Shown here in pieces: positions 9,681-15,591 of a stretch of 64,000 nt of DNA. A program made the translations under genes and the position numbers. The notes beneath the pieces are model-generated. The model saw only the letters and a list, made by a program, of their open reading frames with translations, did no database searches and had not been told where the DNA came from. Origin of the DNA: Molanna angustata (lineage: Eukaryota; Arthropoda; Insecta; Trichoptera; Molannidae); the NCBI GenBank assembly GCA_963576475.1, contig OY754982.1:16248217-16312216 (forward strand), written 5' to 3'. Position 1 is the first letter of the stretch, and each line of letters starts with the position of its first letter.

Positions 9681-9875
9681 TGTTAAATCTAAGGTTTTCG
9701 CGAGTACAAAATATGTTATTATTAAGTATTTTGGGGATAACCCGCGTCAAATTATGATTCCCGAGAGAATCAGTCGTCTGCCGACGTTTCGTCTGAATCT
9801 CATCAGACATTTTCTAAAGGCGCCTTGTTAATAAATTTTCGTCTCGAGGGATAGTGCACGCACGTCCGTTCGAGT
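9681..9875 (-). mobile_element. Penelope-like pseudo-LTR, left partial unit
   Basis: This 195-bp stretch repeats, on the minus strand, the beginning of the element that follows: the 5' leader, the ATG (at 9810) and the first ~43 codons ([14 protein letters not shown] and on to LRFN). It then stops at TTAACATA, where the TA tract takes over. It is therefore the start of a second unit downstream of the full copy at 9917-12577, cut off at its 3' side. Such partial tandem units are typical of Penelope-like elements. The matching partial on the right ends 34 bp earlier. Confidence 0.9.
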
Positions 9876-9916
9876 CGAAAGCTTACTACCAAGTGAAAGT
9901 TTGAAAGGAAGCCGCG

Positions 9917-12577
9917 TCAAGTGTTAGTGGAGGGGTGGGTTTCCCCAATGACGTCATTATTGCGTTTTGTTTGGCTTCTAGTGACTCTAGTACTTAACGG
10001 TATATTGTTTACAGGTGGATTATCAGTTTTCGGCTTACTAAGAATTTTACTAATGTTTTTAAAGTGACTATTGTTTGAAATATCGGTAGTTTGATTACTA
10101 TGGTTTTTAAAAATGTTGTTTTCAAGTACACTTGTCCATGCGGTCGGGATTCGAATGCTATCGTCCCTGTTATTCATTATACTGTTGCTTCTTTTATATA
10201 TTTCGATTGCTTCCCTGTAAATTCTAAATGTTTCATTATTAATATTCGCGACTACTTTTGAATTTTCAAAGTCTATGGAGTGATTTTCGGTCAATGAGTG
10301 ATTTACAAGAGATGAAGTTAGTTTCCGGTTTTTAACATCTACGCGATGTTCAGAGACGCGCGCCGAGATTCTGCGATTTGTCCTGCCTATGTAAGTTTTT
10401 GAGCAATCACCGCATGGGATTTCGTAAATACCGTGTGACTCTAATGGTATTTTATCTTTCGGACTTTTTAAAAAGGATGAAATTTTGTTGTCTGTTCTAA
10501 AAATGGTGCGAATATTATGTTTATAAAGTAGGTGACTGATTTTGTCTGTAGTGCCTTTTATGTAAGGCAAAAACGCAATGGAGAGTGGCTTTACTTTAGT
10601 TGACGTATCTTTTTTATTATAATTTTTATTAGTTTGATTTTTTACTGCATTATTTATCGTAAAATTAGAAAAACCGTTATTTCGTAGCGCGTTTTTAAGA
10701 TACTCTAATTCGTTTTGAATGTTTTCGGAGTCGGCTATCCTTAATGATCGTGTTACCAAGGTGTTTGCTACAGAGGCGATTTGTGCTGGATGATGGTTCG
10801 ACGATGCGTGGAGATATCTGTTGGTATGTGTTGATTTTCTGTACACAGTGTGGCCGAGAGTGCCATCGTCTTTTTTGATTACGAGAACATCAAGAAAAGG
10901 TATTTCACCGTTGTTTTCTATCTCCATTGTGAATTTGATGTTATTGTGGAGATCGTTCAGAAAATCAAGAAATTTGTTAAGTTCCTCCAAACCGTGAGGC
11001 CATATAACGAAGGTATCATCCACGTATCTAATCCATAGCTTTGGTTTTAAGCGCGCTCTATCTATAGCTTCCTTTTCTAACTTGGTCATAAATATGTTAG
11101 CGACTGGCGGTGAAAGAGATAGACCCATTGGTGCTCCTTTTACTTGTTTGTACATGTCGTTATTATAAGTGAAAAATGTGTTATTGAGGCAATGTTCTAT
11201 TAAAGTTATTATGTCATTCGGTGGGTCACTCATTTCTTTTATTGCTTGAAGAGCTTCGTCTGTGGGTATATTGGTGAACAAGGATACGACGTCAAAACTG
11301 ACAAGGATGTCGCCCTTGTTTAATTTTTGATTTTTAATGATTTGTATAAAATGTTCCGAATTTTTGACAAAAGATTCCGCTGATTCTACATCTGGTTGTA
11401 AGTAGTTGGCAAGATACTTTGATAACATTTGAAGTGGAGAACCGACAGAACTGACTATGGGTCTAAGAGGAACATCCGTCTTATGAATTTTTGGCAAACC
11501 GTATAATTTCGGAAAACGTGACGATTTTTCTCTAGGTATTAACGACTTTTTTAATTCGGGACTTAATTTGGATGACATAATTTTAGTTTTAGTCGTTTTT
11601 TCTAAGTATGTTATAGGATTATTAGGATGCAGTTTATAAGCCGGATCGTTGAGCAAATTAGTAATTTTAATGTGATAATCTTCGCTTTTCATGATTACTG
11701 TTGCGTTTCCCTTATCTGCCGGAAGAATAATTATATCTTTATTTGCGCGTAATTCTTTAAGAGCTCGTATTTCATCGAGAGATATATTTCTTTTCGGCGG
11801 AAGCGATTTTCTAAGTATATGGCAAGTTTCTTGTCGTATAGTTTCGGCTATATTATTTGGTAGTTTACATACGGCTGATTCGATTCCCGTAACAATGTCT
11901 TCTTTTGGAATTTTCGGAGGAACAACACCAAAATTAAAACCTTTACTTAGAACCGATATTGTATCGTTATTTAATTTAAGATCGGTGAGATTGTGAATGA
12001 TTTTATCGGTATTTAAAGACTGTTGGTATTCTACTTTTTTGATATTATTTTCGATACGCGTGAATTTACTTATTTGGCGGTCGGAGTTTATTTTATTATT
12101 CGTTTCAATTCTATTATGAATGAGATTATCTAATTCGGACCATATTAATGGATGTAATATATTAGAAAGTTTTAAATGAAGATTTTTAATATCAGTACCA
12201 AGTGTATGTAATTGTAAATGAATGTAACCGATTTCGTCGCGTATGAGGGAAAAACTAGTATTATAAAGAATTTTTCTCACCGATTTTCTGCTACCGCGTT
12301 GTCTCAGTTGAAAACACTTTGGCACTACTTTTTTATCACGACATCGACACAAAAAGGTTAGGTCACATAGAAGCTTCGCGTGTTTTGACTTTAATTTTTC
12401 AAACTTTTTCGTTTCACTGTATATTTCCTCCCCGTAGAGGTTATTTATGTTAAATCTAAGGTTTTCGCGAGTACAAAATATGTTATTATTAAGTATTTTG
12501 GGGATAACCCGCGTCAAATTATGATTCCCGAGAGAATCAGTCGTCTGCCGACGTTTCGTCTGAATCTCATCAGACAT
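9917..12577 (-). CDS. Penelope-like element protein, left copy (RT + GIY-YIG)
   Basis: An intact 886-aa single-ORF retroelement protein, identical in sequence to the copy at 12729-15389. Residue landmarks: the Penelope-type DKGN at 288-291, LYGLPKIHK at 358-366, the motif A Asp429 in LVSFDVVSLFTNIP, GAPMGLSLSP at 481-490, catalytic YVDD at 518-521, FLD at 561-563, then a C-terminal GIY-YIG nuclease with GIY at 716-718, a PCGDC cysteine pair at 721-725 and YIG at 729-731. In this family the nuclease nicks the target and the reverse transcriptase copies the RNA from the nick. The start ATG is the one repeated in both pseudo-LTRs. No stop or frameshift is present, so the copy is potentially active. 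The tail is basic (TRSQTKR). A 3' UTR of about 40 bp leads into the left partial unit. Confidence 0.95.
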   Translation of the reverse strand: MSDEIQTKRRQTTDSLGNHNLTRVIPKILNNNIFCTRENLRFNINNLYGEEIYSETKKFEKLKSKHAKLLCDLTFLCRCRDKKVVPKCFQLRQRGSRKSVRKILYNTSFSLIRDEIGYIHLQLHTLGTDIKNLHLKLSNILHPLIWSELDNLIHNRIETNNKINSDRQISKFTRIENNIKKVEYQQSLNTDKIIHNLTDLKLNNDTISVLSKGFNFGVVPPKIPKEDIVTGIESAVCKLPNNIAETIRQETCHILRKSLPPKRNISLDEIRALKELRANKDIIILPADKGNATVIMKSEDYHIKITNLLNDPAYKLHPNNPITYLEKTTKTKIMSSKLSPELKKSLIPREKSSRFPKLYGLPKIHKTDVPLRPIVSSVGSPLQMLSKYLANYLQPDVESAESFVKNSEHFIQIIKNQKLNKGDILVSFDVVSLFTNIPTDEALQAIKEMSDPPNDIITLIEHCLNNTFFTYNNDMYKQVKGAPMGLSLSPPVANIFMTKLEKEAIDRARLKPKLWIRYVDDTFVIWPHGLEELNKFLDFLNDLHNNIKFTMEIENNGEIPFLDVLVIKKDDGTLGHTVYRKSTHTNRYLHASSNHHPAQIASVANTLVTRSLRIADSENIQNELEYLKNALRNNGFSNFTINNAVKNQTNKNYNKKDTSTKVKPLSIAFLPYIKGTTDKISHLLYKHNIRTIFRTDNKISSFLKSPKDKIPLESHGIYEIPCGDCSKTYIGRTNRRISARVSEHRVDVKNRKLTSSLVNHSLTENHSIDFENSKVVANINNETFRIYREAIEIYKRSNSIMNNRDDSIRIPTAWTSVLENNIFKNHSNQTTDISNNSHFKNISKILSKPKTDNPPVNNIPLSTRVTRSQTKRNNDVIGETHPSTNT

Positions 12578-15389: not shown

Positions 15390-15430
15390 CGCGGCTTCCT
15401 TTCAAACTTTCACTTGGTAGTAAGCTTTCG

Positions 15431-15591
15431 ACTCGAACGGACGTGCGTGCACTATCCCTCGAGACGAAAATTTATTAACAAGGCGCCTTTAGAAAATGTC
15501 TGATGAGATTCAGACGAAACGTCGGCAGACGACTGATTCTCTCGGGAATCATAATTTGACGCGGGTTATCCCCAAAATACTTAATAATAAC
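15431..15591 (+). mobile_element. Penelope-like pseudo-LTR, right partial unit
   Basis: About 160 bp repeat the 5' leader, ATG (15496) and first ~32 codons of the element, in tandem behind the right full copy. It ends at AATAATAACATA, where the TA tract begins. Relative to the left partial unit the end point is 34 bp earlier, yet both stop at the same local word, AACATA, next to (TA)n. This supports separate priming events on a TA-rich target. Confidence 0.9.

Follow-up and report, generated by a model that had tools for sequence, protein, structure and literature searches.

Our sequence data indicate that two complete, identical copies of an element, which by its sequence is to be classed as Penelope-like, stand head to head as a long palindrome in the window, i.e., in the whole 64,000-nucleotide stretch of DNA that was analysed. 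When every base i was paired with base 25306-i, the left arm (9711-12641, minus strand) and the right arm (12665-15595, plus strand) showed 0 mismatches over 2931 nt; the mirror ended on the outer side at 9710, where mismatches resume, and in the centre at 12642-12664. The repeat search of the window lists the same 2931-nt pair, 100% complementary and 23 nt apart, as its longest inverted repeat, and chance is excluded as the source of an exact match of this length. An earlier, sequence-only reading of this DNA had claimed mirror-image units whose paired features sum to 25306, which both the base pairing and the repeat search bear out, and the count of arm differences that it proposed comes to 0 in the 2931 nt. 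It had also described the antisense frames as identical, and the 101-aa open reading frames at 11691-11996 and 13310-13615 are indeed the same. Its main claim, that two full-length, intact and identical Penelope-like copies face each other head to head, stands as well. The description of the palindrome as perfect is correct for the arms, which are identical, but not for the structure as a whole, because its centre holds a 23-nt spacer that does not mirror and a tail is present in the left arm only.

Each arm contains an open reading frame (ORF) of 886 codons, recognised in the ORF list, by Pfam and by its motifs, that encodes a reverse transcriptase (RT) and a C-terminal GIY-YIG-like motif: the left one lies at 9917-12577 (minus strand), the right one, with the same translation, at 12729-15389 (plus strand). 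Residues 364-550 match the Pfam family RVT_1 (E 6e-17; score 62.5 bits, cut-off 29.6), and the RT motifs YGLPKIHK, FDVVSLFTNI and RYVDDTF are found at residues 359, 428 and 517, respectively; the first of them we take to be typical of Penelope-like elements. The Pfam match to GIY-YIG at residues 715-751 is under the cut-off (E 0.042, 14.6 bits against 22.6), and the GIY-YIG-like motifs GIYEI at 716 and YIGRT at 729 are located within residues 716-745. NCBIfam gave a weak match to a group II intron-type RT (score 48.5 bits, cut-off 300), and so did the PDB search, in which the best match had an E of 0.00057 and 3 distinct sequences were found at E of at most 1. The single-sequence AlphaFold2 model, with a mean pLDDT of 33.9, was unusable. 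The RT, the weak GIY-YIG match together with its motifs, the pseudo-LTRs, the tail and the head-to-head layout form the basis on which the element is assigned, from its sequence, to the Penelope-like group.

The ORF of each arm is enclosed by direct pseudo-LTRs (pLTRs), which include the ATG, lie 2767 nt apart and measure 164-165 nt in the right arm and 196 nt in the left one. On the left (minus strand), the 3' pLTR at 9679-9874 consists of 64 nt before the ATG and ORF nt 1-132, and the 5' pLTR occupies 12446-12641. On the right (plus strand), the 5' pLTR at 12665-12828 starts 64-65 nt before the ATG and runs through ORF nt 100; the 3' pLTR at 15432-15595 also runs through ORF nt 100 and is without the tail. 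This tail, as the comparison with the internal copy shows, is a 32-nt segment equal to ORF nt 101-132 that only the left arm carries, at its 3' end (9679-9710, minus strand). At the centre, the pLTR at 12446-12641 (minus strand) faces the one at 12665-12828 (plus strand), and each of these inverted head-to-head pLTRs is part of a complete arm. The outer ends differ: when they are compared with the internal copy, the match stops at ORF nt 100 on the right and at nt 132 on the left. Both exit points carry the string TAACATA, at ORF nt 93-99 for the right arm and nt 126-132 for the left arm; it occurs 5 times in 12665-15620, the copy in the right 3' pLTR among them. The last bases that a TA tract cannot supply are C96 and C129, and the overlap between the element ends and the TA tract amounts to 3-4 nt. 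We regard the internal TAACATA copies at 12821-12827 (ORF nt 93-99) and 12854-12860 (ORF nt 126-132), both on the plus strand, as the candidate RT start sites for the right and the left arm, respectively.

Both element ends lie within (TA)n, where a target-site duplication is indistinguishable from the repeat. The left tract, delimited by Tandem Repeats Finder, covers 9154-9681 and is composed of two pure runs, 9158-9659 (502 bp) and 9661-9680 (20 bp), with one interruption; the right tract, 15592-16091, is 500 bp long and uninterrupted. In the whole 64 kb, TA/AT runs of at least 10 bp are confined to these two tracts. Their near-equal lengths (523 against 500 bp) would arise with a chance of about 2% if the split were uniform, a value computed after seeing the data. 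One could argue that an element near the centre of its TA tracts, with arms identical over exactly 2931 nt, is the product of the assembly or of the library, either as a fold-back read or as a mis-join of two separate insertions. However, a plain fold-back mirrors all of the outward sequence, and in this locus the symmetry breaks off at a candidate start site of the element itself; the tail and the TA interruption differ between the two sides, and there is no relationship between the outer flanks. Between the flanks 8000-9155 and 16092-17300, no inverted match reached an E below 0.13, the best match between them being an AT-rich one on the same strand (32 nt, 84%, E 2e-4). A mis-join, in turn, would have to link two separate insertions at the 23-nt head junction without any overlap between them. 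Thus we consider an artefact of this kind unlikely.

The head-to-head junction itself is a 23-nt filler at 12642-12664 in which CGCACGCTT occurs twice, and a repeat of this length was equalled in 1 of 20000 shuffles that preserved the base composition. Both 3' ends of the element adjoin TA, but between the heads there is no TA, only these 23 GC-rich bases. This arrangement bears on the notion that the palindrome was made by two successive events, either a second insertion head to head with the first one or an inverted duplication, the arms having become identical later via gene conversion. Gene conversion can homogenise the arms of a palindrome, and therefore their identity alone is no proof of a single event. 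Yet if a second element had entered the TA next to the first, some TA should have remained between the heads, where the GC-rich filler is found instead; and if the first copy had been duplicated in inverted orientation, its 3' end and the target sequence should have come with it. An origin in two steps is accordingly rated as improbable. The absence of differences (0 in 2931 nt) dates the separation of the arms to at most about 51,000 generations ago (95% upper bound) for an assumed rate of 1e-8 mutations per site per generation, and to at most about 512,000 generations ago for an assumed 1e-9; gene conversion between the arms would lengthen these times.

That Penelope elements form long inverted structures and carry inverted pLTRs head to head is established (PMC3846280); their tandem and inverted structures hampered assembly, and copies in tandem with inverted pLTRs were called a peculiarity of Penelope-like elements (PMC8969392). 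The sequence-only reading had presented the head-to-head pair as unusual; it was right insofar as both arms are complete, whereas head-to-head pLTRs themselves are the usual Penelope layout (PMC3846280). What is known is therefore the facing of the pLTRs, and what is unusual is the completeness of both arms. In Penelope from Drosophila virilis and Pen2a from Adineta vaga the inverted arm is a pLTR only, whereas here it is a complete 2931-nt unit (PMC3846280). The inverted pLTR of Pen2a is 181 bp long and has a 15-bp overlap with the direct one, in contrast to the present heads, which are 23 nt apart; the ORF part of the pLTR is worth 33-44 codons here and 12-22 codons in typical animal Penelope (PMC3846280). 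An optional 3' tail of 30-40 bp has been described for Penelope-like elements (PMC3846280, PMC11167929). The consulted portions of reports from a butterfly, a fly and a shrimp (PMC8848866, PMC12910113, PMC3124438) place Penelope-like elements in a context without any palindrome, and our search of the open-access literature, which covered parts of the papers, found no report of a full-length head-to-head Penelope palindrome.

The sequence-only reading had asked whether the pair was formed during insertion, by later duplication or by the assembler. The question of origin was rightly posed, and the unequal ends at two candidate RT start sites favour formation during insertion. We consider it probable that the palindrome arose in one insertion, in which the endonuclease, predicted to cut both target strands, made two DNA ends, each of which served the RT as a starting point for copying the element RNA. 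The RNP would open a double-strand break in (TA)n, the sequence that is seen at both ends of the element. As (TA)n is its own complement, the 3' sequence would be the same at both broken ends, and these would act as equivalent primers. Each end would prime internally, on an RNA that continues beyond the pLTR into the beginning of a further ORF copy, one end at the TAACATA of nt 93-99 and the other at that of nt 126-132; the end points are seen directly, and priming at them is our interpretation. Two different priming sites would leave a tail in one arm and none in the other. Both reverse transcriptions would pass through the pLTR, the ORF and the other pLTR and stop at an identical 5' end, presumably on the same or a sister RNA, and the heads would finally be connected by end joining or template jumping. 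The filler at this point is observed, and the repeated CGCACGCTT within it would fit template jumping or polymerase-theta-like joining. The outer ends at ORF nt 100 and 132, each in TAACATA, are as two separate priming events predict, although the 32-nt difference could also result from a later deletion between two TAACATA repeats in one arm. This reading of the mechanism is drawn from a single locus.

The unequal ends also bear on another way to form a palindrome, in which a fold at the 5' end of the pLTR lets an antisense RNA or the first cDNA be copied on itself, and the hairpin is opened to a head-to-head palindrome and inserted. Such self-priming has been proposed for the inverted Penelope junctions of Adineta vaga (PMC3846280), and it yields identical arms and a short unpaired loop, just as observed. 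However, this would give both arms a common end point on the template, and the observed ends differ by 32 nt; the fold-back needs in addition a later deletion between the TAACATA repeats. A copy-back into a primed target would mirror the flanking DNA, and no such mirror is seen. We find this origin rather unlikely, and return to an insertion primed at both ends, for which LINE-1 offers a comparison. In LINE-1 twin priming both ends of one break prime, and each inverted piece is derived from another part of the RNA. The likeness lies in the priming by both ends of one target break and in the inverted product. A twin-primed insertion of the LINE-1 type itself was rejected, because both arms here cover the same 2931 nt and not adjoining parts of the RNA.

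Among Penelope-like elements, the closest parallels to the insertion proposed here come from PAc, a Poseidon element of Anolis carolinensis. Its tail, 30-40 bp long, is the sequence between two internal RT start sites, the main one being 111-118 bp into the ORF; it cuts and extends both target strands, with the same start site for each, it prefers AT-rich DNA, and it is predicted to be a dimer (PMC11167929). A tail between two start sites that lie early in the ORF, an AT-rich target and an RT followed by GIY-YIG are common to PAc and to the present element, in which the start sites are putative and the last domain is GIY-YIG-like (PMC11167929). On the other hand, PAc copies are described as tandem or partial tandem repeats, and the RT start of PAc is in an AC-rich stem-loop, whereas here it would be in an AT-rich region that has no stable stem (PMC11167929). 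The predicted fold of this region has a z of -0.42, and 60 of 200 shuffles fold equally well; the hairpin predicted at the pLTR 5' end is likewise no better than shuffles (34 of 200 are as stable), and none of the pLTR and start-site RNA folds surpassed dinucleotide shuffles (31, 34, 23 and 60 of 200 as good). The start site of PAc is also not homologous to the cut DNA, while the end points here overlap the TA target by 3-4 nt (PMC11167929).

PAc possesses a working, protein-assisted hammerhead ribozyme, in contrast to the present element, which has no Rfam hammerhead match (PMC11167929). Many Penelope-like elements, but not all of them, have such a ribozyme in the pLTR. A string resembling the hammerhead core, CTGATGA-N9-GAAA, does lie over the ORF start in all four pLTRs (plus strand, 12733-12752 and 15500; minus strand, 12573 and 9806), a placement as in PAc, and the loose hammerhead pattern also fits four unrelated places in the window. 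Rfam at the gathering threshold gave 2 matches in the 64 kb, both of them tRNA and no hammerhead, and at E of at most 10 it gave 6 matches in 9650-15620, 0 of them hammerhead. A hammerhead ribozyme in the pLTR was therefore rejected in spite of the core-like string, which is possibly a decayed or divergent ribozyme. Matches to MIR535 at the palindrome centre (E 1.5e-4 and 5.4e-4, below the gathering score) were discarded as the trivial hairpin of an inverted repeat.

Outside the arms and their pLTR pieces, the search for further copies in the window returned only 5 tblastn matches with E of 1.9-4.9. Relatives were found neither in viral contigs (20 pattern matches, 0 confirmed), nor in genome contigs (60 pattern matches, 0 confirmed), nor in plasmids, to which little weight is given as these collections are not animal genomes. 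The window holds repeats of other kinds. Two RT-like open stretches at 2165-3436 and 36357-37160, both on the minus strand, match RVT_1 of Pfam with E of 3e-31 and 3e-5 (5 of the 25 stretches of at least 130 aa were scanned) and are probably LINE remnants. Units of about 1.05-1.17 kb are present as 3 tandem copies at 17432-20750 and 2 inverted copies at 33964-35852, about 14-16 kb apart and 95-99% alike. The tRNA-like matches at 41224-41296 and 42455-42527 (minus strand, 37.1 and 35.3 bits) are situated within repeats that recur at 1182-1335, and are probably the heads of tRNA-derived SINEs. A dispersed repeat with CATCACGCCATGTCCC...ACGGGGTAGGCAGAG is found at 16621-16690, 41576-41645 and 51639-51708, and presumably resembles repeats of Lepidoptera, a likeness that would point to a moth or butterfly as the host.

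The palindrome bears on the integration of Penelope elements and on the origin of their head-to-head repeats and optional tails. In 2013 self-priming on an antisense template was proposed (PMC3846280), and in vitro work of 2024, which did not trace the synthesis of the second strand, found both strands cut and extended (PMC11167929). A more far-reaching version of our reading, to which we give little credence, would make Penelope insertion intrinsically two-ended, with a dimeric enzyme performing one complete reverse transcription per side of a single break. The self-complementary (TA)n would then make a perfect palindrome of full length out of what is usually a lopsided product, and the near-equal TA tracts would be made in part by the telomerase-related RT, stuttering on AUAU at the start sites before it enters the element. 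Two full arms that end at different candidate start sites are expected from two-ended target-primed reverse transcription, but not from self-priming. If the structure is confirmed by reads, the question would become testable by counting the end points of palindromic copies across genomes.
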